Shown: positions 32,644-47,661 of the stretch, in pieces | Layout: each line of letters starts with the position of its first letter | Position numbering within the stretch: the stretch's first letter is position 1 | From: a virus | Direction: 5' to 3' (one strand) | DNA length: 53,365 bases | Virus record (IMG/VR): IMGVR_UViG_3300030101_001011 | Coordinates: 2,203 to 55,567 of that record | Translations under genes and position numbers: made by a program | The notes under the pieces: generated by a model | Databases searched by the model: none | What the model was told of the DNA's origin: nothing | What the model saw: the letters and a program-made list of their open reading frames with translations, nothing else

Positions 32644-32645
32644 AT

Positions 32646-33213: not shown

Positions 33214-33229
33214 TGCCTATAGTTTGTTT

Positions 33230-33757: not shown

Positions 33758-33776
33758 TTGATTTAATTTTATCAGG

Positions 33777-34157: not shown

Positions 34158-34365
34158 AATCCTCTAGCTCCTTTAGTCTGTATTCCTGTAACTTAGACAC
34201 CTTCCCTGAGGGTCTTTTAATCTCGCTGAACAAGACATTTGAGTTTGGTGGTATGGCTATTAGGTCAGGTATTCCGTTCTTGTTTGTCTTCACAAGCTTG
34301 ATAACATAGTAGCCTTTAGATTCTAATTCCTTGATTCTTTTTGATTGAATTTGTTGTTCAGTCAT
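34126..34365 (-). CDS. VRR-NUC family nuclease
   Basis: A 79-residue minimal VRR-NUC domain. The catalytic residues are present: GIPDLIAI (D34) and FSEIKRPSGK (E48-x-K50), with the conserved helix SKLQEYRLKELEDYGF after them. The family includes structure-specific DNA nucleases and Holliday-junction resolvases; phage members of this size usually act as homodimers. It is coupled to the SNF2 helicase upstream by a 4-base overlap. Confidence 0.9.
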   Translation of the reverse strand: MTEQQIQSKRIKELESKGYYVIKLVKTNKNGIPDLIAIPPNSNVLFSEIKRPSGKVSKLQEYRLKELEDYGFNTEIYRG

Positions 34366-35606
34366 CCATACAAATGTACGAATTCCTTTTTAAAATAATT
34401 AACTGTATACGTCTTCTTCTTTGAGACGGCCTTGTAGATATCATCCTCGATACCTCCATCGCTGAACACCCAATACACATCGCTCTCAAGCCTATCCTTT
34501 GTTGTCATCCGATCTCGGCTCTGCCAATATGATGTGGCACTGAAGTCAATGTTGTAGTACACAAGTGCGTCTGCCTGACGTAGTGATATCCCCTCTCGCC
34601 CTGACACTATCTGTAGTGCTATACTCTTGTCTGTGGTATTGAATTCTTCAAGCTTTGTTGTCAGTAGCTCCTTACCAAAGGTATCCTTCAGTGCGGTTAG
34701 TTCCTCCTTGAACTTGTAGAAGATTCCTATCTTCTGTCCCTTGAACCTATCACGTATGAACTCAGCCTTTGTATGGTCTAGTACCATCGACTTTCCACTC
34801 TCAAACTTTATGGTGCCGGAGTATATCTGATGTAGCTTTGACATCAGCTTTACCGGGGTGTCTGCAAGTATCACCTCATCACTACCCTCTACAACTAGGT
34901 CTCTGTCAAGCCTCTTAGCAAGCCTATACGTCTCGTCTCTGAGCTTTACTCTAAGGATGTGTTCCCTTGTGTCCACCTTGAAGCCTGCGTCCTTCTGAGA
35001 GAAGTTTATGGTGTGCTTCTTCATAGCGTTTAGGATGTCTTTCTTTCCACCCGAGTAGTCATTGATGAGGTTACCATTAATCTTCTTCTGCCTTACGTTC
35101 ACCCAATCCTGTGCAAACTTATAGAAGCTTGAGTATCTATTGAATGGGTTAGTCCGTATGCCATACACCTGATGGTACATCTGTGAGTATGACTCCGGTG
35201 TTGGTGTCCCTGACAGTAGTATGACATATGGATCGTGCCTAGCTATCAACTGCTTTACTGCCTTCGCCCTGTTGCTTGGCTTAGGAAATGCACCCATTGA
35301 GTGTGCCTCGTCACATATGATGACATCCCACTTAACATTAGGTATCTTGTGTATCGACTCATAGTTGATAGTAAACAGAGCAAAGTTTACAGGACATAGC
35401 TTGGTGTAGTCATCATTGATAGAGCCTATAGCTTTTTTCTTGGTGAGAAACAATACGTTTTCAACATTCAGTTGTTCACAAATTCCTAAACTCGTGAGTG
35501 TCTTTCCGGTACGCACCTCCATCGCTAGGTATAGGAAGCCATAGTCTCTTATGACCTCCGTACCCTTGGCTATGATATCACTCTGATAGTCTCTAAACTG
35601 AATCAT
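34362..35606 (-). CDS. SNF2-type superfamily II helicase
   Basis: A 414-residue helicase-like ATPase. Motif I is VRTGKT (near residue 33), motif II IICDEAHS, motif III LLSGTPTPES, and motif VI lies in QSRDRMTTKD near the C-terminus. It would translocate on dsDNA and remodel replication or recombination forks, consistent with the neighbouring VRR-NUC nuclease, a pairing common in phages. The start MIQFRDYQ at 35606 is preferred over an in-frame ATG 18 bases upstream, since family members usually start just before the RDYQ motif; both starts overlap the upstream gene. Confidence 0.88.
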   Translation of the reverse strand: MIQFRDYQSDIIAKGTEVIRDYGFLYLAMEVRTGKTLTSLGICEQLNVENVLFLTKKKAIGSINDDYTKLCPVNFALFTINYESIHKIPNVKWDVIICDEAHSMGAFPKPSNRAKAVKQLIARHDPYVILLSGTPTPESYSQMYHQVYGIRTNPFNRYSSFYKFAQDWVNVRQKKINGNLINDYSGGKKDILNAMKKHTINFSQKDAGFKVDTREHILRVKLRDETYRLAKRLDRDLVVEGSDEVILADTPVKLMSKLHQIYSGTIKFESGKSMVLDHTKAEFIRDRFKGQKIGIFYKFKEELTALKDTFGKELLTTKLEEFNTTDKSIALQIVSGREGISLRQADALVYYNIDFSATSYWQSRDRMTTKDRLESDVYWVFSDGGIEDDIYKAVSKKKTYTVNYFKKEFVHLYG

Positions 35607-35913
35607 CCTCTGATGTTTTTGCAATTACCATTACCTTGTATTTTACGATTGCTTTTTTGTTTGGCTTTAGGTTGTTCATTCTAAAGAACGCTTTACTAAT
35701 TCTCTTTATTAGATATTCTTTGTTTTGGTTTAGTTCCTTTACAATTGAATCAACACCCTCAATGAAGTCTACCTTCCTGCTCTTGATAAGCATTACCGTT
35801 TCATTGATTGCCTCTCTGTCTCCAATGACATAGCCGAGCTTTAGTAGAAGCTCTATTGATTCCTTCTCTTTTCTTTTTAGTTCTCTGTAGTGTTCGAAAA
35901 TTTGATTATCCAT
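35593..35913 (-). CDS. hypothetical helical protein
   Basis: A 106-residue, Lys/Glu-rich helical protein (ELKRKEKESIELLLKLGYV) with no recognised domain. It ends inside the start of the helicase gene, so the two are probably translated together. Confidence 0.55.
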   Translation of the reverse strand: MDNQIFEHYRELKRKEKESIELLLKLGYVIGDREAINETVMLIKSRKVDFIEGVDSIVKELNQNKEYLIKRISKAFFRMNNLKPNKKAIVKYKVMVIAKTSEDDSV

Positions 35914-35984
35914 TTTGTTTTTTTGTTTTATATATTCTTATTCTGTATCTAAATATGTTCAGTCTAAATATTGTCTTGAACATA

Positions 35985-36452
35985 CTACTCTATTGTGAAG
36001 TTAAACTTATACTTGGACTCACTATAGTCATCCTCATACCTCATCAGGAAGGTGTAGTTTCCGCTCTTAGATATTGCGTCATTGAATAGTGGATACTCAT
36101 CATCAGAGAAAAGAACCATACCCTTGTTGTAGCAGAAGCATTTAATCTCTCTAATCTCTCCCGATGGTATCTTAATCATTACCGTTTGGTATGAGTTATT
36201 GATCCATCGCTCTCTCGTTGTTCTGTTGTAAGGATAGATAGACACTGAGTAGTTATCACCTTCATCGTGCTTGATAAGAAACCCGCAGGGGCTATTGGTG
36301 GTTGCAGAGTTACTGAATACACCGACAGCATCAAAGTATTCAAAGCTCTCTCCGGTCTTATCACCGAAGTCATCTACATAATACTCAGTCTCCCACTGAG
36401 CTAGGGTTGTAAGGGTTAGCATCATTGATGCATATAGAATTAATTGTTTCAT
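35985..36452 (-). CDS. exported protein with signal peptide, function unknown
   Basis: A 155-residue protein with a clear Sec signal (MKQLILYASMMLTLTTLAQ, cleavage probably after A18 or Q19) followed by a beta-rich mature part of about 136 residues with Tyr/Phe/Asp and two Cys. It is the only obvious exported protein in the replication operon. Periplasmic or surface action early in infection, for example blocking a second phage or the cell-envelope response, is inference. No family was recognised. Confidence 0.68.
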   Translation of the reverse strand: MKQLILYASMMLTLTTLAQWETEYYVDDFGDKTGESFEYFDAVGVFSNSATTNSPCGFLIKHDEGDNYSVSIYPYNRTTRERWINNSYQTVMIKIPSGEIREIKCFCYNKGMVLFSDDEYPLFNDAISKSGNYTFLMRYEDDYSESKYKFNFTIE

Positions 36453-36479
36453 TGTATTTGATTTAAATTGTTGGGAGAT

Positions 36480-36671
36480 TTAGAGTCCTCCCTTTGACTC
36501 ATATTGTTTAAATGTAATAGGCATCTTCGATAGATAGGGCATAACCTTTTCAAGCTTTACAAACTTTATATACTTTCCCTTTTCGTCTAAGGCTTTTATC
36601 TGCTTGATTACTATATCCTTTCCATTATATTCGTATCGAACGACCTGTAAGCTGTGTGGTTTTCTGTCCAT
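36480..36671 (-). CDS. hypothetical small basic protein
   Basis: A 63-residue Lys-rich protein (QIKALDEKGKYIKFVKLEKV) without a recognised fold. It lies 27 bases before the exported-protein gene and 10 bases after the winged-helix gene. Confidence 0.5.
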   Translation of the reverse strand: MDRKPHSLQVVRYEYNGKDIVIKQIKALDEKGKYIKFVKLEKVMPYLSKMPITFKQYESKGGL

Positions 36672-36681
36672 TTTATTTTAT

Positions 36682-36903
36682 TTAGTTGTTTATACTAATG
36701 TAATGACCTTGCTTTATTCTGTATAACCTAGAAGTCTTTACAAATTTCTTTAACCAATCTGAAAGTGTTCTATCAGGGACGCCTATGGTTTGTGCGTATT
36801 CATATATATCTTTCCTAGTTAATACACCATTCTGATTGTTTATCCATTTAAGTAACTTTTTTTCTAGCATAAAATCATATGCCCAAAACTCTCTATCTTC
36901 CAT
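36682..36903 (-). CDS. small winged-helix/HTH protein
   Basis: A 73-residue protein with a helix-turn-helix-like segment (LTRKDIYEYAQTIGVPDRT then LSDWLKKF) and a short wing (SRLYRIKQGHYIS). It directly follows the primase-helicase gene (1-base gap), so it may be a DNA-binding accessory of replication or an early regulator. Confidence 0.6.
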   Translation of the reverse strand: MEDREFWAYDFMLEKKLLKWINNQNGVLTRKDIYEYAQTIGVPDRTLSDWLKKFVKTSRLYRIKQGHYISINN

Positions 36904-36904
36904 A

Positions 36905-39319
36905 TTAAATTAGTTTTTGTTGTGGCTCTACCTTCGGAGCCATCTTGATTATTATCCATCTACCCTGAGAATCTCTCCCCTCCTCGGGTTGAACGCCCTC
37001 CTTGAACAGTGCGTATGACACCAACCATTGATAGAACTTTGTCCTTGAGATTGTCATCTTTGCCTTCGGCCCATAGTCGGGATACTCCTGCACGAAATCA
37101 AAGTATAGGTCCTGCTTGTATAGCTTTACGCCCGTCTGTAGATTTCTGTTAGACTGCTGTCCCTCTATCAGTCCACACCACTCAATGAAGTCGTGGGTTG
37201 TCTCGGCAGAGAGCTGTCGAATCTTTAGGTTTACGAACACACTCTTCTGTAGTCCCTTGTTTAGATACATCTGTAGGCAACCGATCATATAGTTGTCAAA
37301 GAAGCACCACTCCTCATCGTTCCAATCACCGAACATAAGCTTACCAAACTCATCCAACGGTGTGAAGTTCTTGCTATAGTGTTGGTGTAGCTCAAGCTCC
37401 CACTTACGTCTCGCAAAGCTATTACCCGCACCCTTTATAGCATAGTTAGTAGTGATGGCAATCTTAGGTGACTTACTGAATGGTATCTTGATAGCATCCT
37501 TGTTCTTCTTCTCCAATGTCAGTCCCTCTGTAACAACACTGAACAACCTCTCGAAGTCAAAGTGTTTCTTCACATCATCGAAGACAAGTATCTGCGTGTC
37601 TGCACTCACAAGTTGGTATGCAAATGACCGCTCAAAAGTAAATGACTTACCATCAATGGTAACAACCTTCTTCATCTGTGCCAAGGCATTCATAAAGATT
37701 CCTTTGCCGGTGCCACCCTCGGGGTTATCACTTATCACCTCGTCATTTAGTATCACTGCGGGGCAGTATGATAGGTTCTTGTGTCCGTGTAACATAAAAC
37801 CTATCGTTGACTCCATAGATAGCACACGCTTAGAGTTTCCACTACAGATGTTTGAGATGAACTTGCGGTACACACTATCACTACCATCACATATCTTGAA
37901 GTTCCTATCTATGACGTGATCCTTCCATACATATCCACCCAAGTCAAGGTAGTCTATAGGTGTAACCTCTCCCTTGGTGATGCTAACCGCACAGTTCTTG
38001 TAGTATAGATAGGCTGTGTCCTTGGTATCCTCAATGAAGTAGATGTCAATCGTAGATAGCAGTGTCAAGAATTCCTCACGGAAGAGTCTCGTTTGGTCTG
38101 CGAAGTAGTTGTAGATAGACATATCGTCTAGGTCTATAACGTGTTGCAGAACGAAGTCCTTTATCTCCTTTTCTGAGGTGTGGTCGATAAGGTTGTTGGT
38201 AACCTTCACGAACACATAGTTCTTACTACCCTCGGGACAATACTTGTAGAAGCCATTGTCTTCTAAGAAGTCCTTGAATAGTATATGCACAATCTTTATT
38301 GTACCCTTGTCGTTCTTTGACCAAAAAATCTGCTTGGTATTGTCTTCCTCTATCCTATTGAGTACGGAGTCTATTGTTGCACCATCCAAGTCTGACTCCT
38401 CTAACTGATGGCGAACCTCCTTTTTTGACACACCCCTCCTCAAACTCTGCTTGATATTGTTGATGGCATCCTCGTCCTCGTAATACTTGGTGCCGAAGTT
38501 ATGTGTGTTGCTATATGCCGAGTCAATAGTCCTTGATATCTCCGATAGAGAGAAGTCCTTTGTCTCAAACTGATTGAGTACATATCCCGCTAGGCTCTTG
38601 TTGATTCCGTAGTCATTGAATGCCATCGCTAGGATGAACACATTCTGATTACGTTGCCCCTCTACCATTGGATACTTTTTTGTCCACCACTTAACTAATA
38701 TATCTACCACCTTGTTCTCGTCAGTGATTGGTATCGTTGGTGCATCTTGGTGTTGGATAATCTCCTTGTACTCTATCTCCTCAAGCGTGTCCCATATGCT
38801 TGAGTTCTCGTTTACATATATCAATGGATCGTAGGACTCGTAGCATACACGGGATATGTTCTTGCAGGTCTTGTCAAAATACTGAGAGCTGAAGTGCTTC
38901 TCCAATGAGTTGAAGTAGCTAACGTGATTCTCAATCTCTTGGGGTATCTTTACCAATACCTTGAGTCCATTCCCCGATGGGGATATGAACACTGAGTATA
39001 CGTGCTTGTCCTTACTGATTGATTCCTTGTCTTGAAGTAGTTGCTTCTGCTTCTCATATCCATCGAAGTCTAAACATATGAATCCGCTATGCTCGATGAT
39101 AGAGGAGTCGTTCCTCTTGTTGAATGTACCACTGAAACATACCGCAGGTAGTCTCTTCTTTAGTTCGTTACGCTCACCCTTGCTCTTCTCTGAGCGGATA
39201 CTCTTTACTAGGTCTTTCGATGAGCCATCCTTGATTCTCTCTAGGATTTTATCTATCGGTCTATAGAAAGGGGTGTCTGTATCCTTTATACTTTTAAATA
39301 TTGTGATGTTTGATGTCAT
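36905..39319 (-). CDS. primase-helicase: BT4734/VirE-N domain fused to SF3 helicase
   Basis: The replicative protein, 804 residues. The N-terminal ~190 residues are a BT4734-type archaeo-eukaryotic primase-like domain: CLDFDGY gives the metal-binding D-x-D, SPSGNGLKVLV the second motif, and ISRVCYESYDP the third. A PriCT-like helical middle follows. The C-terminal half is a D5/DUF5906-type SF3 helicase: Walker A GGTGKG (near 535), Walker B ILVFDDV (near 580), sensor IAITTNY (near 621) and an arginine finger in ARRKWELEL. Its ATG is 4 bases from the first of the GTGTCG repeats, so it may bind its own upstream region as origin and autoregulatory site. Confidence 0.88.
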   Translation of the reverse strand: MTSNITIFKSIKDTDTPFYRPIDKILERIKDGSSKDLVKSIRSEKSKGERNELKKRLPAVCFSGTFNKRNDSSIIEHSGFICLDFDGYEKQKQLLQDKESISKDKHVYSVFISPSGNGLKVLVKIPQEIENHVSYFNSLEKHFSSQYFDKTCKNISRVCYESYDPLIYVNENSSIWDTLEEIEYKEIIQHQDAPTIPITDENKVVDILVKWWTKKYPMVEGQRNQNVFILAMAFNDYGINKSLAGYVLNQFETKDFSLSEISRTIDSAYSNTHNFGTKYYEDEDAINNIKQSLRRGVSKKEVRHQLEESDLDGATIDSVLNRIEEDNTKQIFWSKNDKGTIKIVHILFKDFLEDNGFYKYCPEGSKNYVFVKVTNNLIDHTSEKEIKDFVLQHVIDLDDMSIYNYFADQTRLFREEFLTLLSTIDIYFIEDTKDTAYLYYKNCAVSITKGEVTPIDYLDLGGYVWKDHVIDRNFKICDGSDSVYRKFISNICSGNSKRVLSMESTIGFMLHGHKNLSYCPAVILNDEVISDNPEGGTGKGIFMNALAQMKKVVTIDGKSFTFERSFAYQLVSADTQILVFDDVKKHFDFERLFSVVTEGLTLEKKNKDAIKIPFSKSPKIAITTNYAIKGAGNSFARRKWELELHQHYSKNFTPLDEFGKLMFGDWNDEEWCFFDNYMIGCLQMYLNKGLQKSVFVNLKIRQLSAETTHDFIEWCGLIEGQQSNRNLQTGVKLYKQDLYFDFVQEYPDYGPKAKMTISRTKFYQWLVSYALFKEGVQPEEGRDSQGRWIIIKMAPKVEPQQKLI

Positions 39320-39322
39320 CTT

Positions 39323-39482
39323 AGTGTCGTTTTGATGTCGATAATTAAATGTTAACTCTCTGATTATCAGAGTTAGTGTCGATAATGTCGATTTTTATTC
39401 TCTATCCTAGATATAAAAAAAATAAAAGAGTAATAAAATATATATAGTCTATATAGGAACTACATTTTTTGACATTCGACAC
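39323..39482. other. candidate replication origin: GTGTCG repeats, palindrome and AT-rich stretch
   Basis: Between the primase-helicase start and the SSB-like gene lie (a) AGTGTCGTT at 39323 and GATGTCGAT at 39334, (b) a perfect 15-base palindrome CTCTGATTATCAGAG at 39358-39372, (c) the pair AGTGTCGATAATGTCGATTT at 39375-39394, (d) an almost pure A/T block at about 39411-39460, and (e) an inverted copy GACATTCGACAC at 39471-39482. Iterons, a dyad and an unwinding-prone region together are typical of theta-type origins. The same pair occurs again at 47532-47551. Confidence 0.55.
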
Positions 39483-39490
39483 AGTAGATT

Positions 39491-39516
39491 GGAAAACAAA
39501 GGGGAGTCTCCTCCCC
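39491..39516 (-). terminator. rho-independent terminator (leftward)
   Basis: On the minus strand GGGGAG-GAGA-CTCCCC (39516 down to 39501) is followed by TTTGTTTT. It lies after the SSB-like gene and separates the recombination genes from the origin and primase-helicase. Confidence 0.82.
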
Positions 39517-39540
39517 TGAGCTGAACCAATCAAAAAAGAA

Positions 39541-39801
39541 TTAGAATGGTAGGCCATCTGACTCCGCTTTCTTAGGAGCAGTGACCTCTTCCTTAGGCTT
39601 GTAGGTGTCCAACTCAACGTAGTAGTTTCCACTACGTGCTTGGTTTACATTTAGGTTGATCCAACCATCACTCATATGTTCTTTGACAAATGCCATAGCA
39701 TCGTCAACCTTTAGTGATAGTCTACCCACTACAAATTCGGGGGCGTTCTCTCTTCTCTTGAAAGAGAATCCGTTTGCAAAAACTTTTTCGTCTTGTGACA
39801 T
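39541..39801 (-). CDS. ssDNA-binding protein-like, with SSB-type acidic tail
   Basis: An 86-residue protein. The body has beta strands and aromatic residues (FANGFSFKRR, DGWINLNVNQ, YYVELDTYK), then a Pro/Lys/Glu linker and the end ESDGLPF. An acidic tip ending in Pro-Phe is the partner-docking tail of bacterial SSB proteins (D-D-x-I-P-F). Its place beside the recombinase and exonuclease and the origin supports an SSB role. The OB fold itself cannot be proven by eye. Confidence 0.65.
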   Translation of the reverse strand: MSQDEKVFANGFSFKRRENAPEFVVGRLSLKVDDAMAFVKEHMSDGWINLNVNQARSGNYYVELDTYKPKEEVTAPKKAESDGLPF

Positions 39802-39842
39802 AATATAAATTGTTTTGTTCCAATGATTAAAATAAAACCCGA

Positions 39843-39869
39843 CACACGATACATTGGAGACATCGTGTG
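39843..39869 (-). terminator. hairpin after the exonuclease gene, possible leftward terminator
   Basis: CACACGAT (39843-39850) pairs with ATCGTGTG (39862-39869) around an 11-base loop. On the minus strand it is followed by TCGGGTTTTATTTT. It lies between the RecE-like and SSB-like genes. Confidence 0.55.
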
Positions 39870-39882
39870 CTAGGTATCTGTG

Positions 39883-40626
39883 TTATATCTCTTGCTCTAC
39901 GTAGTAGTTATTAATGTCTAACTCGGAGTTGTCACCAAAGAACTTATCGTATATCTCTATTGCCTTGTGCATCTTGTCTCTACCCCTCTGATAGAACTCA
40001 TCACCACCGGTGAACATTCCCATCCTACCCGACTGCTTCTCAATGACCAAGAACATCATCGGCTTACCGAATAGTTGTTGGTATATGTATGCTTGGCTAT
40101 CGTAGTTGTACTTCCTTGCGTTCCACTTGAAGTCATCAATGCTTGACGTTGTCTTAAGGTCTATCACGTAGTCCTTATGGATGATGTCTGCCTTTCCTTT
40201 CCACTGCGTAAAGCTTTCTCCACACTTGTAAGTAACTACATTGGGTTGCTCATAGATGTTACCCTCTGCACGTATTAACTCAAAGAAGTCAATGTTGCCT
40301 AGCATCTTCTTTACCAATGCGTCAATGGTCTCCTTCTCTGTACGTAGTAGTGCCACCTCAAGATCACTGTTAGCAATGAACTCCTTGTACACCTTGGTGT
40401 TCCTAGATGCAGAGTCTACCCACACCACGTCCTCTGCCTTCTCGGGCTCAAGGATTAGTTGATGGAAGTATCTACCCTCTGCAAAGTTCTTGTTGTCGGG
40501 ACGTGAGACACCGAATTGGTCGGGAGTCTTTAGCAGTGTTCCAATGTCTGAGTTGGATAGGTACTGCTTACCTACCCCTCCGTAATACTCTTGGTCATCA
40601 CGGAGTAGTTCTATAACGCTACTCAT
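39883..40626 (-). CDS. RecE/DUF3799-type PD-(D/E)XK exonuclease
   Basis: A 247-residue protein of the lambda-exonuclease/Cas4-RecB nuclease class. The N-terminal YLSNSDIGTLLKTPDQF and FAEGRYFHQLILEP stretches are typical of DUF3799. Catalytic residues lie in GKADII (Asp near 145) and VIDLKTT (D-x-K near 155), with QAYIYQ as the following motif. It would resect 5' ends to make ssDNA for the annealing protein encoded just upstream, whose stop overlaps this start by one base. Confidence 0.88.
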   Translation of the reverse strand: MSSVIELLRDDQEYYGGVGKQYLSNSDIGTLLKTPDQFGVSRPDNKNFAEGRYFHQLILEPEKAEDVVWVDSASRNTKVYKEFIANSDLEVALLRTEKETIDALVKKMLGNIDFFELIRAEGNIYEQPNVVTYKCGESFTQWKGKADIIHKDYVIDLKTTSSIDDFKWNARKYNYDSQAYIYQQLFGKPMMFLVIEKQSGRMGMFTGGDEFYQRGRDKMHKAIEIYDKFFGDNSELDINNYYVEQEI

Positions 40627-41222
40627 TACTTGGATTTTAATACCTTAGCAATCTCCTTTTCTTGTGCCTTGGTGACGTGGTACTTCTGCTCGATGTTAGC
40701 AACCAACTGACGGAGACCTAGCTCCTTGTTCTCTGCTACATACTTAAGCATATCCATCATCTTGTCATCGGGTATACCCTTGACCTCAACCTTTGTCTCT
40801 TTCTTTGGTTGCTCCTTCTCTACTGAGGGTAGGTCTTCACCCGCATATACATACAGACCTAGACCGTGACGAGCAAGAGCCTTGGTAAGGCTACGTTGTA
40901 TTGCCTTGTTCACGTCAGTTGACTGAATCTTTTCAAGGGGTATTGAGTTGTTACGGAAGTCCATTACAGGTAGGTACTCGATGTGTTCGATACCTTGTAT
41001 GCTTACCCCGGTCTTTACCCACGCAGATCGGTGGTCTCTGTGATAGAACAATCCATCTGCATCCTCATAGATTGTGTATGTTGCCTCGGGATAGTGTTCC
41101 TTTGCGGTTGCCCAAGCCCAAGCCCACGATAGGTATGTGAGTCCGTTCTTAGTTTCTGTACGTCCATTGACGTTGATTGCGTTCAGTGTCTCGAACACTG
41201 ATTTCTTTTTAGCGTTTGCCAT
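40626..41222 (-). CDS. DUF1071/ERF-like single-strand annealing protein
   Basis: A 198-residue recombinase mediator. The motif NGLTYLSWAWAWA followed by YPEATYTIYED is the signature of DUF1071, a branch of the Sak/ERF single-strand annealing proteins; the TDVNKAIQRSLTKALARHGLGLY segment is the conserved core helix. The C-terminal 60 residues are Lys/Glu-rich. It forms a recombination module with the exonuclease after it and the SSB-like protein. Confidence 0.88.
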   Translation of the reverse strand: MANAKKKSVFETLNAINVNGRTETKNGLTYLSWAWAWATAKEHYPEATYTIYEDADGLFYHRDHRSAWVKTGVSIQGIEHIEYLPVMDFRNNSIPLEKIQSTDVNKAIQRSLTKALARHGLGLYVYAGEDLPSVEKEQPKKETKVEVKGIPDDKMMDMLKYVAENKELGLRQLVANIEQKYHVTKAQEKEIAKVLKSK

Positions 41223-41610
41223 CTTGATTTGATTTAATTAATAATTGATTCACCTTAAAATATTTGCTTGAGAAGATATCTCTCTCTTGCTTCAGAGATA
41301 CAAGAACCTTCTTGCGTCTCCTTCCGTTTACCTCATCGGTAATTCGCCTTGTGATTCCATCAAGCTTTCTTTTGTAGCTTGACAAAGATAGTGTATATAT
41401 TCCACAAAGCCAACCCTTCTCTCTGAATATGTCATACTCATCGTCACTTATCTCTTCGTAATACTCACCCTTGTTAGTGTTCAAGATGGTGACCTTGTTG
41501 TGACGATCCTTAATAATCTTTATTCCATAGGAGATAAACCCTTGATGCTCTCCGCTATCCATACGTACTGCGGAGTGGTCTCTACTTGCTTGATTGAATA
41601 TCTCTAACAT
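41209..41610 (-). CDS. hypothetical protein next to the recombination genes
   Basis: A 133-residue protein with a beta-rich first half (EHQGFISYGIKIIKDRHN, then VTILNTNKGEYYEE) and a basic helical second half (RRRKKVLVSLKQERD). No family recognised. The ATG at 41610 is used; a GTG one codon upstream is also possible. It overlaps both neighbours. Confidence 0.58.
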   Translation of the reverse strand: MLEIFNQASRDHSAVRMDSGEHQGFISYGIKIIKDRHNKVTILNTNKGEYYEEISDDEYDIFREKGWLCGIYTLSLSSYKRKLDGITRRITDEVNGRRRKKVLVSLKQERDIFSSKYFKVNQLLIKSNQDGKR

Positions 41611-41909
41611 CACGATAACTTTTCAATCACCGACTGATAGTCTCTGTCATATTCAATCTTTCTCTTCACCGCTGCTAGTCCCCATCTGATTGATGAGTGA
41701 CCGATGTCATAACCTCTAGACTTCATATACCTTTGGATTTCTACGGTTCTCATAGGTCTCTTCGAGCATAGGTAGTATAGCAGTTGCCTTGCATCAGTAA
41801 TATCTTGAGTCTTCTTCTTCTTGAAGATGTCCTTCTCCTTCACACTGAATAGCTTGGCTACCCTCTTTGCGTATACATCACACGCTTCTTCTTTCTCTGT
41901 CATTGTCAT
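41610..41909 (-). CDS. second DnaA domain IV-like DNA-binding protein
   Basis: A 99-residue protein whose outline follows DnaA domain IV: VAKLFSVKEKDIFKKKKTQD, then the DITDARQLLYYLCSKRP helix (compare the ARQ-x-A-x-Y-L of DnaA), then MKSRGYDIGHSSIRWGL in the place of the helix-turn-helix with GHSS for DHST. The start at 41909 (CAAATGACAATG) fits the AAATCAAATG initiation context; a longer frame to 41975 is open but lacks that context. Together with 33230-33757 it gives this phage two free DnaA-type DNA-binding domains. Confidence 0.6.
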   Translation of the reverse strand: MTMTEKEEACDVYAKRVAKLFSVKEKDIFKKKKTQDITDARQLLYYLCSKRPMRTVEIQRYMKSRGYDIGHSSIRWGLAAVKRKIEYDRDYQSVIEKLS

Positions 41910-42006
41910 TTGATTTTGTTCCTGCAACCACAATGAATGATTGCAGGATGTTATTAATTGTTGGGTGAACACCATTGTCCACCTCCTTTGATTTTGATTT
42001 GCTCAT
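41878..42006 (-). CDS. possible 42-residue peptide
   Basis: ATG at 42006 has the typical AAATCAAATCAAATGAGC context and sits 15 bases downstream of a palindrome copy, exactly as the gene at 43255-43506 does. The peptide begins MSKSKSKEVDNG and has a short hydrophobic stretch (ILQSFIVVAG). It overlaps the start of the DnaA-like gene in another frame. It may instead be a leader. Confidence 0.4.
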   Translation of the reverse strand: MSKSKSKEVDNGVHPTINNILQSFIVVAGTKSNDNDRERRSV

Positions 42007-42021
42007 TTGATTTGATTTGTG

Positions 42022-42041
42022 AGGTTCACCCTAGTGAACCT
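42022..42041. repeat. palindrome A, copy 1
   Basis: AGGTTCACCCTAGTGAACCT. On the minus strand its centre supplies the TAG stop (42031-42033) of the gene at 42031-42291, so that protein's final SEVH is coded by the palindrome arm. Confidence 0.85.
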
Positions 42042-42291
42042 CTGATTTATTATTCCACTTGTCAATTATCTGCTCGTTCGTTGAGTCATCAATGTAGTAT
42101 GTATAGTTTCCTATCGTCACATACAATGACTTGTTTGAACGGATGTCTATCTGCATCTTGTTACGCTTAACCCAACGTGAGTACATCTTACTTGCTACCG
42201 CCAACCTCTGTGGTCTGAACGGATAGTCTTTCTTGATGATAGCCATTGCTATCCTTACGAAGTTCTCTCTATCACTCATAGTCTTCTGCAA
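42031..42291 (-). CDS. hypothetical small protein ending in palindrome A
   Basis: An 86-residue basic protein (AIIKKDYPFRPQRLAVASKM, YVTIGNYTYYIDD) with no recognised family. A start at the internal Met 5 (MSDRENF) is also plausible. It overlaps the upstream gene by 20 bases. Its last residues SEVH and the stop codon lie inside palindrome copy 1. Confidence 0.55.
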   Translation of the reverse strand: MQKTMSDRENFVRIAMAIIKKDYPFRPQRLAVASKMYSRWVKRNKMQIDIRSNKSLYVTIGNYTYYIDDSTNEQIIDKWNNKSEVH

Positions 42292-42469
42292 TTTCTTGGG
42301 TTAGCATTACACCTAGGTGATTCAATCTAGATATCGTATGCTCAAGCAGTTCTCTTGGACTGAGGTTGTGTTCGTTAAAAACAAACTTGTTTCTGATTAT
42401 CTCTAGGTCATCTTGGTATGAGTCTATTTGGTTTCTCAATCCTTGTTCATCTTCATTTAGTTCTCTCAT
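42272..42469 (-). CDS. hypothetical helical protein
   Basis: A 65-residue acidic, heptad-like protein (LNEDEQGLRNQIDSYQDDLE; LEHTISRLNHLGVML). The start follows the AATCAAATG context, and a sigma-54-like site lies 47 bases upstream. Unknown function. Confidence 0.55.
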   Translation of the reverse strand: MRELNEDEQGLRNQIDSYQDDLEIIRNKFVFNEHNLSPRELLEHTISRLNHLGVMLTQEIAEDYE

Positions 42470-42484
42470 TTGATTATGATTTTA

Positions 42485-42616
42485 TTATTGTTTGGTTATG
42501 TCATCTGCAATATACGTGCCAAAGTCTTTCTTCAGTTTCAGATATAGGATGTATCTCTCTAGATCAAAGCTATCCCAATAGTCTAGCCAATCTACTATGT
42601 TAGTGTGTGGTTTCAT
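42485..42616 (-). CDS. hypothetical 43-residue protein
   Basis: Short gene with an ATGA overlap with the gene before it. The protein is aromatic and acidic near its start (IVDWLDYWDSFDLERYILYL) and ends DITKQ. The last third also contains the sigma-54-like site at 42516-42533, so the coding and promoter readings of that stretch compete. Confidence 0.5.
   Translation of the reverse strand: MKPHTNIVDWLDYWDSFDLERYILYLKLKKDFGTYIADDITKQ
42516..42533 (-). promoter_or_regulatory. sigma-54-like -24/-12 site, copy 4
   Basis: Minus strand TTTGGCACGTATATTGCA matches YTGGCACG-N4-TTGCW exactly. The -12 end is 47 bases before the ATG at 42469. Unlike the other three copies it lies inside a short open frame. 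Confidence 0.4.
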
Positions 42617-42939
42617 ATCTCTATCTCTTTTTTAATTAAACCTTGTACTAATGCTTGGTAGTTTCCCTCGTCTGCCTTTCTCATGGCATCGAGTAGGTCT
42701 CCACGTAATAACGCAGACATAAAGCTACCTTCTCCAAACCTCATTGATGTCTTCACATCAACATCGGTATCCTCATCTATATACATCTTTGCTCTACCTC
42801 TGCACATATCATTGGTGCTATACATACTTACCGCCCTTAGCATTGTGAATCCTTTGAAGTCCGTAACGAACCTCGTGTTCCCATTGTCATCCTCATAACT
42901 CATATTGGTCTGAGGGTATTGTAAATTAAATGTACTCAT
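42613..42939 (-). CDS. hypothetical acidic protein
   Basis: A 108-residue protein with many Asp and Met (YEDDNGNTRFVTDFKGFTML; YIDEDTDVDVKTSMRFG). Two thirds beta, last third helical. No recognised domain. It lies 2 bases downstream of the gene at 42942-43238. Confidence 0.55.
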   Translation of the reverse strand: MSTFNLQYPQTNMSYEDDNGNTRFVTDFKGFTMLRAVSMYSTNDMCRGRAKMYIDEDTDVDVKTSMRFGEGSFMSALLRGDLLDAMRKADEGNYQALVQGLIKKEIEI

Positions 42940-42941
42940 AT

Positions 42942-43238
42942 CTATTGGTTTTTATTGTATTGTTTTATAAATTCTACTACTGCAGTGTGCACACCTCTCA
43001 GATTACACACCAACAATTGTCTTTTGATTTCGTTAGCCGAGTTGTCTATAGCATCTAATCTCTCAAGACAATTCTCCACTACGGGGATCAACCAATTCCA
43101 AGAGAGATGGTAGGATAGTTCGTGTTCTTCATACCAACTATCATCTATACCATAATTTATTATACCTCTTGGTTGAAATATCTCTGTTGGTAACTGCATA
43201 AATTCTGCGATCATCTTATTGTTTTCTTGTGTGTTCAT
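42942..43238 (-). CDS. conserved small phage protein, paralogue of 44167-44526
   Basis: A 98-residue protein that starts MNTQENNKMIAEFM and contains SWNWLIPVVE and ends VVEFIKQYNKNQ. The gene at 44167-44526 shares this frame (MNTKENNKMIAEFM, EWNWLMPVVE, AVVEFINQYNKN). I recall this 'NK-IAEFM ... W-WLMPVV' family as frequent in phages of Bacteroidota, unknown function. Confidence 0.68.
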   Translation of the reverse strand: MNTQENNKMIAEFMQLPTEIFQPRGIINYGIDDSWYEEHELSYHLSWNWLIPVVENCLERLDAIDNSANEIKRQLLVCNLRGVHTAVVEFIKQYNKNQ

Positions 43239-43254
43239 TTCTATTTGTTTTTAG

Positions 43255-43506
43255 TTAATCGTATATTGGGAAGTCAACATTATGTCCTCTATGAACGAAT
43301 GAATTGTGTATCTCCTCATCCATCTCAATGCGTATCTCAATCTCTTTGTCCTTGAACATTCCAATCAGACTATACAAGTCAAATTGTGTATTTGAGATGG
43401 TCTCATTTTCAGTAGGGCATAAACTCTCAATGGCTTTTTGATAGGTCTCAAGAGCATCTACAACGATGTCTTGTTGGTCTTGTGGTAGTTTAATTGTGTA
43501 TCTCAT
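43255..43506 (-). CDS. hypothetical small protein after palindrome A
   Basis: An 83-residue acidic protein (IKLPQDQQDIVVDALETYQK; DKEIEIRIEMDEEIHN). The ATG lies 15 bases downstream of palindrome copy 2, with the CCAATCAAATG context. No known family. Confidence 0.55.
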   Translation of the reverse strand: MRYTIKLPQDQQDIVVDALETYQKAIESLCPTENETISNTQFDLYSLIGMFKDKEIEIRIEMDEEIHNSFVHRGHNVDFPIYD

Positions 43507-43521
43507 TTGATTGGTGTTGTG

Positions 43522-43541
43522 AGGTTCACTTGCGTGAACCT
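43522..43541. repeat. palindrome A, copy 2
   Basis: AGGTTCACTTGCGTGAACCT, between the stop at 43554 and the start at 43506. On the minus strand the loop is GCAA, a GNRA tetraloop if transcribed. Confidence 0.85.
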
Positions 43542-43553
43542 CTGATTTGTAAA

Positions 43554-43742
43554 TTAGTTTAGTTGTGCTAGGAATCTATCCCAATACTCCTCTAGTTCTT
43601 GATTCGTCATAATGAAGTCACTTGCCTCTTGTCTTGATGAGAATGCATATATCCCTATGTCATTCCCTCTGTCGATGTTTACCACCCATAGACCTTGTCT
43701 TATCATCTGAATCTCGATGTCTACCACTCGCCTCCTAGTCAT
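43554..43742 (-). CDS. hypothetical small protein
   Basis: A 62-residue protein (VVDIEIQMIRQGLWVVNIDR; FSSRQEASDFIMTNQELEEY) that looks like a two-strand, one-helix fold similar to the protein at 44710-44913 (both have a strand pair, a short turn, then an EA-x-x-hydrophobic helix). It overlaps the upstream gene by 8 bases. Function unknown. Confidence 0.55.
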   Translation of the reverse strand: MTRRRVVDIEIQMIRQGLWVVNIDRGNDIGIYAFSSRQEASDFIMTNQELEEYWDRFLAQLN

Positions 43743-43947
43743 TCACGATAGGTAAGGCATCGTTGTACTCGAATGAACCACTCTCTATGTACTCATAGAT
43801 TTCTTCTTTGTATGCATGTTCCATAGCCGTTGGCTTCCCCTCCGCATTCTCTAGGTGTAGAACATACAATTCACGATCGTCATTCTGCTCATTCATTGGC
43901 TCTACCACTCCCGATAGAACCATCCACATAAAAATTAATTTAGTCAT
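43735..43947 (-). CDS. hypothetical small acidic protein with hydrophobic N-terminus
   Basis: A 70-residue protein. The first 15 residues (MTKLIFMWMVLSGVV) are hydrophobic and could be a weak signal or membrane anchor; the rest is acidic (AYKEEIYEYIESGSFEYNDA). Starts in an AATCAATG context. No family recognised. Confidence 0.5.
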   Translation of the reverse strand: MTKLIFMWMVLSGVVEPMNEQNDDRELYVLHLENAEGKPTAMEHAYKEEIYEYIESGSFEYNDALPIVND

Positions 43948-43970
43948 TGATTATTGATTTGATTTGTTGC

Positions 43971-44183
43971 CTACTCTATGAAGTTTTCGGCTTCCCTTCT
44001 ATTTGTTTTATGAGGTTCACTCGAGTGAACCTCTGATTCATCATACCATACCTCATCTACAAAGCAGTCCTTGTCTCTCTCAACCTTGCTCATATAGTTG
44101 TCAAGGTGTTGTCGGTCATTGAACGTCTTGTTCACATACCAATCCTTACCATCGGGCATCCTAAATTTAATCTGTGCTTTCAT
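43971..44183 (-). CDS. hypothetical small protein read through palindrome A
   Basis: A 70-residue basic/acidic protein (IKFRMPDGKDWYVNKTFNDR; CFVDEVWYDES). Its frame runs through palindrome copy 3, which codes for EVHSSEP, and ends 13 codons later. Comparison with copy 1, where the same arm frame hits TAG, suggests the original C-terminus was at or before the palindrome and the present tail (HKTNRREAENFIE) is an extension. Confidence 0.58.
   Translation of the reverse strand: MKAQIKFRMPDGKDWYVNKTFNDRQHLDNYMSKVERDKDCFVDEVWYDESEVHSSEPHKTNRREAENFIE
44013..44032. repeat. palindrome A, copy 3
   Basis: AGGTTCACTCGAGTGAACCT, fully self-complementary over 20 bases, located inside the coding sequence of the gene at 43971-44183. 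Confidence 0.85.
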
Positions 44184-44526
44184 TCTTATTGTATTGGTTT
44201 ATAAATTCTACTACTGCATTGTATAGCATCTCTCTCGTTGTACTTCCATGCTCATTGCTTACAAAAATACGGTCGTAATTCTCATAGTATATTGTAACTT
44301 TGCTTGGATGTATGTTTACGCTATATACAAACTCATCATCATCATCTAAAATGTTATTTATCTTCTCTACTACAGGCATCAACCAATTCCATTCTTTGTG
44401 GTATTGTAGTTCGTCAAATGTATTGTTTCGTAGTTGCAATGTTTCTTCATTGTCATACCAACCAATGTCAGTCTGTTGCATCCCCATAAATTCTGCAATC
44501 ATCTTGTTGTTTTCTTTTGTGTTCAT
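44167..44526 (-). CDS. conserved small phage protein, paralogue of 42942-43238
   Basis: A 119-residue protein sharing the start MNTKENNKMIAEFM, the EWNWLMPVVE core and the C-terminal AVVEFINQYNKN with the gene 1 kb downstream; the acidic and strand-rich middle (IHPSKVTIYYENYDR) is extra. Two family members in one array point to local gene duplication or repeated capture. Confidence 0.7.
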   Translation of the reverse strand: MNTKENNKMIAEFMGMQQTDIGWYDNEETLQLRNNTFDELQYHKEWNWLMPVVEKINNILDDDDEFVYSVNIHPSKVTIYYENYDRIFVSNEHGSTTREMLYNAVVEFINQYNKNESTD

Positions 44527-44536
44527 ATCTATTTAT

Positions 44537-44713
44537 TTATAATTCAACATCCTTATCGTATGTGGCTTGTATCTCTGCACATACAATCCTACCTACCTCT
44601 TGGTAGTATTCTTCCCCACCACCATAGACCTTATAATTATACTTTAATCTTTCTAACTCATCGATAAGGTTATCGATAAACTCTTGATTTACTGCTTCTT
44701 TCCATCCGTTCAT
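44537..44713 (-). CDS. hypothetical 58-residue protein
   Basis: A short gene with an ATGA overlap with the gene before it. The protein is mostly helical and acidic (EFIDNLIDELERLKYNYKV; EEYYQEVGRIVCAEIQ). No recognised family. Confidence 0.55.
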   Translation of the reverse strand: MNGWKEAVNQEFIDNLIDELERLKYNYKVYGGGEEYYQEVGRIVCAEIQATYDKDVEL

Positions 44714-44913
44714 ATCTCTGATATTAAATTGGTTAACATTGCATCAAGCATTGGATTCTCCAAAGCCATTGCACATAGTTCATTTGAATTTAGTATACAC
44801 TCGTATGCTTCCTCTACACTAGGTAATGTCATTACCTCAATCTTAGTTGCCGTCTCGATGTGTATTGCACATATCCCATTAGGTAATGTGACTAACTGAA
44901 TTGATTTGTTCAT
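44710..44913 (-). CDS. hypothetical 67-residue protein after a sigma-54-like site
   Basis: Small protein with a strand pair (IQLVTLPNGICAIHIET) and helices (SVEEAYECILNSNELCAMAL). The start is 34 bases after the end of the -24/-12 site at 44948-44965, so it is probably the first gene of a transcript running leftward to about 43.2 kb. Confidence 0.58.
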   Translation of the reverse strand: MNKSIQLVTLPNGICAIHIETATKIEVMTLPSVEEAYECILNSNELCAMALENPMLDAMLTNLISEI

Positions 44914-44947
44914 AACTTTTATTTGATTAGTATTTGATTAGCACTAC

Positions 44948-44965
44948 TGCAAAGGTCGTGCCAAA
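44948..44965 (-). promoter_or_regulatory. sigma-54-like -24/-12 site, copy 1
   Basis: Minus strand TTTGGCACGACCTTTGCA is an exact match to the sigma-54 consensus YTGGCACGr-N3-TTGCW (GG and GC 10 bases apart). It follows hairpin B (44976-45014) and precedes the start at 44913. It does not match TAnnTTTG. Confidence 0.5.
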
Positions 44966-44975
44966 CTCTTTTCAC

Positions 44976-45014
44976 CACCTCATCCCCACTACCCGAAGAT
45001 AGTGAGGCAAGGTG
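44976..45014 (-). other. hairpin B, copy with UUCG loop
   Basis: On the minus strand CACTATC-TTCG-GGTAGTG (45004 down to 44987) sits inside an outer CACCT/AGGTG helix. C(UUCG)G is an extra-stable RNA tetraloop. A degraded palindrome A (GTGAATCTAGTTTAC) lies beside it at about 45013-45028. Confidence 0.55.
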
Positions 45015-45029
45015 TAAACTAGATTCACT

Positions 45030-45143
45030 CTATGATAGTAGGATGTACCAAACAATGTGATACCCTCCTACACCCACTGCAATGGGACTCAGTAGAATGA
45101 TTGCGTCAACTAGCCTTGACGATGGCTCAAATAATCCTCTCAT
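45030..45143 (-). CDS. 37-residue membrane peptide
   Basis: Short gene with one hydrophobic helix (LVDAIILLSPIAVGVGG then YHIVWYILLS). ATG at 45143 lies after hairpin B, in an AATTAATACTATG leader very like that of the next gene upstream. Too short for family recognition; single-TM phage peptides often modulate host membrane proteins. Confidence 0.5.
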   Translation of the reverse strand: MRGLFEPSSRLVDAIILLSPIAVGVGGYHIVWYILLS

Positions 45144-45169
45144 AGTATTAATTTTATTGGTTTCTACCA

Positions 45170-45208
45170 CCTCAAGCCCGATCCTTTTCTGAATCGAGGT
45201 GCTTGAGG
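45170..45208 (-). other. hairpin B, copy with CGAT/ATCG inner stem
   Basis: CCTCAAGC (45170-45177) pairs with GCTTGAGG (45201-45208); an inner CGAT/ATCG helix lies within. The outer stem is nearly the same as in the copy at 45422-45461 while the inner stem and loop differ, so structure is kept while sequence changes. Confidence 0.6.
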
Positions 45209-45228
45209 AGGTTCACTCGGGTGAACCT
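45209..45228. repeat. palindrome A, copy 4
   Basis: AGGTTCACTCGGGTGAACCT. Its right edge overlaps the TAG stop (45227-45229) of the 55-residue membrane protein gene. Confidence 0.85.
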
Positions 45229-45394
45229 AGTGGTTCTTTTCCTTATGTCTGAAGTATATGAATGCTGTTGTGCATATGCTTGTTAATAAAATTAACATCG
45301 GATTGTAGCATACGATTGTACTTAGTACGCATAGAAGGGTAAAACATAGAGAAGATACCTTCATCATATTGTAGTAAAGCGAGTCTTTTATCAT
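45227..45394 (-). CDS. 55-residue two-TM membrane protein
   Basis: Small protein with hydrophobic segments at about 13-29 (VSSLCFTLLCVLSTIVC) and 32-48 (PMLILLTSICTTAFIYF) and a basic end (RHKEKNH). The start lies after hairpin B and an AATTAAACGTTATG leader. Its TAG stop is the edge of palindrome copy 4. Unknown function; membrane location is clear. Confidence 0.58.
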   Translation of the reverse strand: MIKDSLYYNMMKVSSLCFTLLCVLSTIVCYNPMLILLTSICTTAFIYFRHKEKNH

Positions 45395-45421
45395 AACGTT
45401 TAATTTTATTGGTTTCTACCA

Positions 45422-45461
45422 CCTCAAGCCCATACCCCGAAGGATATGAGCGTACTTGAGG
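45422..45461 (-). other. hairpin B, copy with UUCG loop
   Basis: CCTCAAG (45422-45428) pairs with CTTGAGG (45455-45461). Inside, minus strand CATATCC-TTCG-GGGTATG forms a second helix with a UUCG tetraloop. It directly follows palindrome copy 5 and precedes the gene starting at 45394. Confidence 0.62.
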
Positions 45462-45481
45462 AGGTTCACTCGGGTGAACCT
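45462..45481. repeat. palindrome A, copy 5
   Basis: AGGTTCACTCGGGTGAACCT, identical to copy 4. It overlaps the TAG stop (45480-45482) of the gene at 45480-45662. Confidence 0.85.
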
Positions 45482-45662
45482 ATCTTTGTAAACCCTCTAG
45501 GTAGTTGTCAATGTACCTTACTAGGTCACTATCACTACTATCAATGTCATCAGATAGGTGCAAGGTGATTACTGCGTTGTGCTCGTCCTCATCCACATCT
45601 AAAAGAAGTGCTAGTAAGTTTACTTGAGTGGTGTCGTTAATCCAAAATTTTGATTCGTTCAT
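45480..45662 (-). CDS. hypothetical acidic 60-residue protein
   Basis: Begins MNESKFWIND, as its upstream neighbour begins MNES, and both share the leader AATCAAGTAAAATG. Asp/Glu-rich (LLLDVDEDEHNAVITLHLSD). Stop codon lies at the edge of palindrome copy 5. No family known. Confidence 0.52.
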   Translation of the reverse strand: MNESKFWINDTTQVNLLALLLDVDEDEHNAVITLHLSDDIDSSDSDLVRYIDNYLEGLQR

Positions 45663-45700
45663 TTTACTTGATTTAATTGGTTTATAATTCGTTATGTTGG

Positions 45701-45982
45701 TTATTTATTCACGTGAAAAGAAAACGTTCTAATGGTTTTCATTTCTTTATTGGGCGAGGTGCTAGTAAGTTTTACAACTCTATACCCTAGCTTTGTGTAG
45801 TTGCGTTCCGCAGTCTCAGAACCTCCTAATCTTCTGAACCATTTTAGGGTATCATCACAAGTTATATTGTGGTATTGTCTCTCATCTATCACGCTTGATT
45901 TTTCCTCATCTAGAAGATAAGTAGTTTTAGTGTTTGGGTTCTTAATTAGTTTCTGTGTGTGCATTTTAATTGATTCGTTCAT
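45701..45982 (-). CDS. hypothetical 93-residue protein
   Basis: A mixed charged protein (TCDDTLKWFRRLGGSETAER; LGYRVVKLTSTSPNKEMK). The pattern of a helix with WFRRLGGSE then strand GYRVVKLTS-TSP is one I recall from small phage proteins of Bacteroidota, with no function attached. Shares its leader sequence with the gene at 45480-45662. Confidence 0.58.
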   Translation of the reverse strand: MNESIKMHTQKLIKNPNTKTTYLLDEEKSSVIDERQYHNITCDDTLKWFRRLGGSETAERNYTKLGYRVVKLTSTSPNKEMKTIRTFSFHVNK

Positions 45983-46012
45983 TTTACTTGATTTTATTGA
46001 TTAGTTAATTAA

Positions 46013-46309
46013 TTATTGTATGTCTACTAAGCCACCATCCCACTCCTCTCCATTCAAATACCATACCCAATTCTTTTGGTTTATGTTTACTCCCGGGATT
46101 CCATTCAATCTCTCTTTCGTTGTTACTGACTTCCAACCTGAAGTGGTAATACTCAATGTCCTCTCGGGATTGTTGTATCTATACGCAATATTATTGCCGA
46201 ATAGTTTTAGCATTGTTACGTTCGGTAATACGACTACCTCCATATTTGACTTCTTAAATTTTCTCGCATTCATAAATGCGTTTACTGATTCTATTGTTAT
46301 CTTTCTCAT
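46013..46309 (-). CDS. conserved phage protein, DUF8033-like
   Basis: A 98-residue protein with the pattern ITIESVNAFMNARKFKKSN, LFGNNIAYRY, SITTSGW, TTKERLNGIPGV and a final WYLNGEEWDGGL. This set is that of a very widespread small phage family of unknown function (DUF8033 by recall). It is the first gene after the sigma-54-like site at 46363-46380. Confidence 0.75.
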   Translation of the reverse strand: MRKITIESVNAFMNARKFKKSNMEVVVLPNVTMLKLFGNNIAYRYNNPERTLSITTSGWKSVTTKERLNGIPGVNINQKNWVWYLNGEEWDGGLVDIQ

Positions 46310-46362
46310 GTCTATTTGTTTTTATTGTATTTATTAATTGATTATTATTTGATTATGGATAT

Positions 46363-46380
46363 TGCAAATAGTGTGCCAAA
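46363..46380 (-). promoter_or_regulatory. sigma-54-like -24/-12 site, copy 2
   Basis: Minus strand TTTGGCACACTATTTGCA keeps GGCA and TTGCA at sigma-54 spacing. It follows hairpin B and palindrome copy 6 and ends 53 bases before the ATG at 46309. Confidence 0.45.
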
Positions 46381-46388
46381 CTCCTCTC

Positions 46389-46427
46389 ACCACCAAAACC
46401 CCGCTAGTTTCCTAGCGAGGCGGTGGT
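46389..46427 (-). terminator. hairpin B, terminator-like copy with GAAA loop
   Basis: On the minus strand CCTCGCTAG-GAAA-CTAGCGGGG (46420 down to 46399) is followed by TTTT, within an outer ACCACC/GGTGGT stem. It comes after the gene at 46442-46684 and before the -24/-12 site. Best reading: terminator directly upstream of a new promoter. Confidence 0.62.
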
Positions 46428-46443
46428 TCACTCGGGTGAACCT
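46424..46443. repeat. palindrome A, copy 6
   Basis: TGGTTCACTCGGGTGAACCT, one mismatch at the outer pair. It overlaps the TAG stop (46442-46444) of the gene at 46442-46684. Confidence 0.85.
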
Positions 46444-46684
46444 AGTGATTGAGATAGAATGTACTTACCTCAGTATTTGTTTCTACACCTCTATCATCGT
46501 GTATATATGAATAGTTGCTATTATTAATGTTCTTACAAAACTTTGAGTAACTAAATAGCTTAGCTTCGGGATTGTAACTCATATACTCTACACATCTTTC
46601 ATATGCTAGTTTCTTGTTCGTGAATACTCCAATGTTACCATCTTGATTGCCCCATACAATGTATACCTTCTTTGAATTGTTCAT
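46442..46684 (-). CDS. hypothetical 80-residue protein, first gene of the leftward array
   Basis: A small protein (KVYIVWGNQDGNIGVFTNKK; YERCVEYMSYNPEAKLFSYS) that looks like a two-strand plus helix fold; similar 'YIVWG-xxDG..GVFTNKK.AYE' proteins occur in other phages without a known role. It is the first leftward gene after the divergent region, 41 bases downstream of a sigma-54-like site, so one of the earliest expressed genes by position. Confidence 0.6.
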   Translation of the reverse strand: MNNSKKVYIVWGNQDGNIGVFTNKKLAYERCVEYMSYNPEAKLFSYSKFCKNINNSNYSYIHDDRGVETNTEVSTFYLNH

Positions 46685-46724
46685 AATGTTTATTATTAAA
46701 TGATTATTATTTGATTAGCACTAG

Positions 46725-46742
46725 TGCAAATGCTATGCCAAA
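46725..46742 (-). promoter_or_regulatory. sigma-54-like -24/-12 site, copy 3
   Basis: Minus strand TTTGGCATAGCATTTGCA keeps TGGCA and TTGCA with four bases less the consensus CG. It ends 40 bases before the ATG at 46684 and would drive the whole leftward array. Confidence 0.45.
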
Positions 46743-47121
46743 GTTTAAATCCTCTACATCCTTTGCCTATACTATGATACAGAAGGGTTTACATTCTAGC
46801 AATGCTCTAGGAATTGTTTAGAGGGGATGAAATCGGGTGAGGGGTTATACCTTCCCTCTATGTATCCCCCATAGTATAAGGGGTATAGGGGTAAGTGGTA
46901 GGGGGAAGGTCAAAGGAACAAGGGATGTAGCAAGGATACTAGACGTAGCAAGGGTTATAGGGTATGGTTCACGCAGGTGAACCTATAAAAACGTCAAAAA
47001 ATCCACAGTAACCCACGCAAACGCACAGGGGGGTAGGTCAAATATATCCGTTTCCGAAAAGGGGGTGCAGCGCGTGTAGCCATATAGAACCCAAACACTA
47101 TAGGCATCTGAAAAAATTTTG
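46743..47121. other. non-coding divergent region with G-runs and long inverted repeat
   Basis: No credible gene on either strand. The plus strand has runs of three to six G at 46823, 46835, 46841, 46880, 46888, 46901, 47028 and 47061. ACCTTCCC (46849-46856) pairs with GGGAAGGT (46903-46910) around a loop that itself holds CTATG/CATAG. GTAGCAAGG occurs twice (46927, 46945). AAATCCACA at 46999-47007 resembles a DnaA box in 7 of 9 bases. This separates the leftward early genes from the rightward arm and could hold an origin, early promoters or both. Confidence 0.55.
46965..46984. repeat. palindrome A, copy 7
   Basis: TGGTTCACGCAGGTGAACCT, the only copy in the divergent non-coding region and not near a stop codon. 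Confidence 0.82.
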
Positions 47122-47551: not shown

Positions 47552-47653
47552 CAAAAACGATTTGACCACAAGAAAAAGTTACACGTTAAAAGGGAAATAG
47601 AGAGAGAGATAGGGGAAGAAAAGATTCGGCATTGTGGCATACTAATATTTTGT

Positions 47654-47661
47654 TATCTTTG
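47654..47661 (+). promoter_or_regulatory. Bacteroidota-type promoter of the chaperonin operon
   Basis: TATCTTTG with TTG at 47632-47634, 19 bases apart, fits both promoter elements. It ends 24 bases before the groEL ATG. It also argues that the in-frame TTG at 47632 is not the start. Confidence 0.7.

Follow-up and report, generated by a model that had tools for sequence, protein, structure and literature searches.

The window, by which we mean the whole 53,365-nucleotide stretch of viral DNA analyzed here, contains a leftward gene block on the minus strand (31973..46684) that encodes small ORFs, DnaA_C-type HTH proteins, a Sak annealing protein, an exonuclease, a primase-helicase, an SNF2-type helicase, and a VRR-NUC protein. 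Judged by this gene content, the block is probably early or middle in timing. A scan with the pattern TT[TG]-N17-23-TAnn[TC]T[TA]G detected no sigma-A-like promoter ahead of any leftward ORF. In contrast, the phage groEL is preceded by a sigma-A-type promoter on the plus strand, TTG-N19-TATCTTTG (47632..47661); the phage-encoded GroEL and GroES lie at 47686-49308 and 49501-49827. No recognisable gene for RpoN, a sigma-54 activator (PF00158), or a sigma-70 factor was found in the window virus, which also gave no match to Sigma70_r4 or, in its record (G000), to the sigma factor profiles PF04545 and PF04552. A 3436-aa ORF at 21514-31824 had no Pfam match.

The leftward block is presumably driven by four minus-strand sites that resemble the -24/-12 promoters of sigma-54. 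Site 1 (TTTGGCATAGCATTTGCA, 46742-46725) lies 40 b from the ATG of ORF 46684-46442, the first gene of the block; site 2 (TTTGGCACACTATTTGCA, 46380-46363) lies 53 b from the ATG of ORF 46309-46013, a member of the Kyano_Gp96 family; and sites 3 (TTTGGCACGACCTTTGCA, 44965-44948) and 4 (TTTGGCACGTATATTGCA, 42523-42506) lie 34 b and 36 b from the ATGs of ORFs 44913-44710 and 42469-42272, respectively. These distances agree with the first-pass annotation, which had reported four leftward sites 34 to 53 b ahead of ATGs. All four of the sequences it listed are present and three of their coordinates are right, the fourth site lying ten bases away from the 42533-42516 given for it. Sites 1 to 3 are intergenic, and site 4 falls within the 3′ end of a small 43-codon minus-strand ORF (42616-42485), a reading frame deduced from the sequence. 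The placement upstream of gene starts is nonrandom, and across the clade nine of nine sites are followed by an ATG no more than 120 b away.

The published sigma-54 consensus consists of TGGCAC and TTGC with about 5 bases between them, and is written TGGCACN5-7TTGCT (PMC12316311). Membership was tested with TTGGCAYR-N4-TTGCW, with GG at -24 and GC at -12, 12 bases apart. Sites 3 and 4 carry the complete consensus TTGGCACG-N4-TTGCA at every defined position and are the two of the four that fully fit TTGGCACG-N4-TTGCW, and in sites 1 and 2 one or two bases after TTGGCA deviate. All four nevertheless have the sigma-54 geometry, a GG-to-GC distance of 12 bases with a free middle, and the GGCA and TTGCA elements that had been described in them are part of an exact TTTGGCA-N6-TTGCA in every case. 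The sites do not match the Bacteroidota sigma-A promoter (TTG-N~20-TAnnTTTG) used ahead of the phage groEL; as had been proposed, they are distinct from TAnnTTTG elements, and none combines TAnnTTTG with a suitably spaced TTG upstream of it.

TTTGGCA occurs six times in the 53 kb, and four of the six occurrences are followed by N6 and TTGCA; the two elements were not found together in the window at any other spacing from 0 to 24. As a check of the background rate, we compared the four observed copies of TTTGGCA-N6-TTGCA with 300 fourth-order Markov sequences, which contained none (expected, 0.0). A scan of the whole 55,894-b virus record allowing up to one mismatch found nothing beyond the four sites, meaning that the motif is present in full or not at all. 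The exact motif occurred a single time in 1.59 Mb of other viral loci.

The motif recurs ahead of different genes in three close relatives, with two sites in L009, three in L038/L119 (one with a single mismatch), and one in L039/L118, and it is absent from the more distant relatives L010-L012 (76-79% SSAP identity). Counterparts of site 1 could be aligned (TTTGGCACACCATTTGCA in L118 and TTTGGCATAGCGTTTGTA in L119), and a leader of ~330 b is kept in three genomes, with identity ending just past the ATG and different genes downstream. The counterpart of site 2 lies near position 13744 in L119, where it follows the same hairpins. From site 4 to the ATG, the window is ~95% identical to L009, with flanks of only 35-65% identity. 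Unlike this block, the ORF upstream of site 4 and the gene downstream are not conserved, and the comparison indicates that the downstream gene is swapped between the window virus and L009. As read from these alignments, the retention of site and leader while the following genes change is the behavior of a promoter module.

The host of the virus is probably a member of the Bacteroidota, as suggested by the type of its sigma-A promoter, a DUF805b RNA, a BT4734-like domain, and the occurrence of related contigs in MAGs assigned to Bacteroidetes and Cytophagales; this assignment is to a phylum and not to an exact species, and unrelated MAG bins likewise contain contigs of the relatives. The first-pass annotation had stated that some Bacteroidota carry RpoN, and we found it encoded by 148 of 148 genomes in a sample of the phylum to which a Cytophagales MAG belongs; this is the presumed phylum, not the exact identity, of the host. 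In 61 of these genomes, the motif was about fourfold more frequent than the reversed control (82 versus 20, summed), and it was far commoner in the array-bearing phages described below than in host genomes. Some groES leaders in the phylum sample carry -24/-12 elements (TTTGGCACGACCTTTGAT, TTGGCACAGCCTTTGCT, and TTGGTACGGTAGTTGCA). The groES leader of L195, TTTGGCACGACCTTTGAT, is near-identical to site 3, TTTGGCACGACCTTTGCA, and one groES leader agrees with site 3 in all of the first 16 bases. The genes served by sigma-54 promoters in Flavobacterium psychrophilum are groESL, dnaK, grpE, and lon as well as envelope genes (PMC9723704); the host groESL is driven by sigma-54 in Flavobacterium, whereas the phage groEL stands under a sigma-A promoter. 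The F. psychrophilum SM4 (sigma-54) promoters and the Bacteroidota groES leaders have the same -24/-12 elements as the window sites but serve host chaperone and envelope genes, whereas the window sites would serve phage genes.

We also searched viral contigs for a single strict version of the motif, which matched at least 120 loci; among the matches listed, an intergenic site followed by an ATG no more than 150 b away was present in 61 of 120. Dense arrays were present in G162 (80.8 kb, 28 sites), G163 (216.9 kb, 33 sites), G164 (115.9 kb, 21 sites), and G167 (30.4 kb, 21 sites), each with no match in the reversed control and with nearly all sites ahead of ATGs. In G162-G164 combined, 82 sites had the N6 spacing, versus 0-2 at any other spacing. 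The array-bearing records are phage-like by content (terminase, tail fibre, tRNA nucleotidyltransferase, and RNA ligase), and RpoN was encoded by 0 of the 16 records checked. The only protein that the window virus has in common with these four is an amidase, found in G163; it shares none with G162, G164, or G167. Because the arrays occur in unrelated phages, ahead of ATGs and only at N6, a host factor is the simplest reader, and host machinery is plausibly the one thing that the window virus and the large phages share.

Several further observations concern the viral arrays. Matches to PF00158 in G163 and G166 were rejected as activators, since they are ClpB-like AAA+ proteins; sigma-70-family factors and ClpB-like chaperones are also encoded in array-bearing large phages at L342 1396-2490 and L350 6542-7405, and in L323 and L324. 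No common enhancer dyad was found upstream of the sites in G162, G163, and G164, and only the G164 group showed a higher density of TGTCA/TGACA upstream of its sites. When isolated phages with known hosts were sought, no arrays were detected among laban6-1, the first 50 kb of PTm1, MT835503, and three virome records. Tandem -24/-12-like arrays in which genes do not follow each element were seen in the viral contigs L320 (8160-8423, with a 26-b period), L243, L316, and L219.

Phages usually depend on the primary sigma factor, on its modification, or on a polymerase of their own. We consider it likely that the four sites are instead -24/-12 promoters read by the host sigma-54 (RpoN) polymerase, which would bind them and drive the small unknown ORFs and the recombination and replication genes leftward, while other genes, e.g., the phage groEL, would use ordinary Bacteroidota sigma-A promoters. 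A host activator would be required to open the sites, because the sigma-54 polymerase starts only with an ATP-driven activator and no known activator type was found in the virus; this could plausibly be an activator responsive to stress on proteins or the envelope during infection. We infer RpoN use, the host activator, the stress signal, and, from gene content only, the timing. Taken together, the geometry of the sites, their near-zero chance rate, the conserved promoter-plus-leader module, the presence of RpoN in the sampled phylum genomes, the near-identical host groES sites, the lack of a sigma-A alternative in the block, and the occurrence of the motif in unrelated phages support the sigma-54 reading of the first-pass annotation.

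An alternative raised in that annotation is that the sites are promoters or operators of a factor encoded by the phage, whose preferred sequence by coincidence resembles that of sigma-54. The lack of sites in moderately distant relatives is as expected for a phage-specific system, and G163 and G164, two of the large phages in which the arrays are dense, each have a gene for a sigma-70-family factor, which for these two could still be the reader of the arrays. However, the window virus has no recognisable sigma factor and no match to an activator, and of its proteins none is shared with two of the three large phages compared and only the amidase with the third; the same motif and spacing are nonetheless found in G162 and G164, and a near-identical sequence stands ahead of a host groES. 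This alternative is thereby weakened, and we regard it as unlikely. Chance or a shared coding constraint could be argued from the position of site 4 inside an ORF, but that reading is effectively refuted by the 0 of 300 shuffles, the lack of one-mismatch neighbors in the genome, and the recurrence of the motif in relatives and unrelated phages.

In a nonpromoter role, the sites would belong to conserved 5′ leader RNAs or to a different DNA-binding system (a repressor, replication, or packaging signal). In favor of such a role, conservation extends across the entire leader, from site to ATG, strong hairpins lie ahead of sites 2 and 3, and palindromes of the form GGTTCAC-N4-GTGAACC are confined to the same block (42.0-47.0 kb). 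These palindromes, which could act as enhancers, fold as strong RNA hairpins, and one of them, GGTTCACCTGCGTGAACC (46966..46983, minus strand), is 224 b upstream of site 1. Yet hairpins and palindromes are also found at junctions that lack a site, no hairpin of this kind immediately precedes site 1 or site 4, and the block otherwise lacks a recognisable promoter. The fixed 12-base GG-to-GC distance with a variable middle also suits a reader of the DNA face such as sigma-54, and we judge a nonpromoter role to be very improbable. We note that the seven 18-b palindromes are at 42023, 43523, 44014, 45210, 45463, 46425, and 46966, and that the relatives L010-L013 carry another palindrome, AGTGTC..GACACT.

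The use of sigma-54 by a phage had been called very unusual in the first-pass annotation, which needs a caveat: Pseudomonas phage YuA (Yuavirus) is reported to be strictly dependent on host sigma-54 (PMC5053324), and to that extent the principle is already known. The YuA record (NC_010116) annotates three -24/-12 promoters with high reporter activity ahead of head and tail genes, of which 0 of 3 contain TGGCA-N6-TTGC. As in YuA, phage genes in the window follow -24/-12 promoters, here in a virus without an RpoN gene. The two systems differ in that the YuA sites serve structural (late) genes whereas the window sites precede small ORFs and recombination and replication genes, and in that the window sites are at or near the full consensus, in a different host group, presumably the Bacteroidota. 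The novelty lies in this host group, in the genes that the sites precede, in how completely the consensus is matched, and in the recurrence of dense arrays among large phages that are unrelated; in the literature searched, we found no report on phage sigma-54 promoters in Bacteroidota.

More tentatively, and with rather more doubt than conviction, we propose that hijacking of host sigma-54 is widespread in Bacteroidota phages and has arisen in unrelated lineages, with small phages using a few sites for the replication-side block and large phages carrying 20-30 consensus sites, about one per gene. A host stress activator would open all of these sites, so that the stress of infection would trigger phage expression. 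Borrowing host sigma-54 may be a common but overlooked phage strategy. Placing a gene block or dozens of promoters under sigma-54 would make phage expression conditional on a host signal, because this polymerase cannot start without its activator. The recurrence of the motif in unrelated phages makes it testable which host activator is used and whether stress at infection sets timing or host range. The motif also offers a simple sequence rule for promoter annotation in Bacteroidota phages.

The window and its relatives contain other structured elements at gene junctions. Strong multi-hairpin elements (z -4 to -5) were found on the minus strand at 45480-45400, 45227-45150, 45020-44966, and 46442-46400, two of which terminate in GGTGGTAGAAACC. 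The hairpin elements of the window, including those preceding sites 2 and 3, matched no Rfam family. DUF805b RNA (RF02914) scored above the gathering threshold at 44000-43968 (minus strand) in the window and at 242-274 in L009, in each case just ahead of a small ORF. In L011, type III hammerhead ribozymes are repeated at 2293-2347, 3402-3456, and 6728-6782, the best with an E value of 1.7e-7, just under the Rfam cut-off, and similar cores are present in L010 and L012; these hammerhead carriers are the relatives at 76-79% SSAP identity. Each hammerhead of the L011 type follows a GAGTGTC..GACACTC-type hairpin and lies shortly ahead of an ATG, between small early genes. The hairpin elements of the window occupy the junction positions of these hammerheads, and they possibly represent an undescribed self-cleaving or processing RNA.
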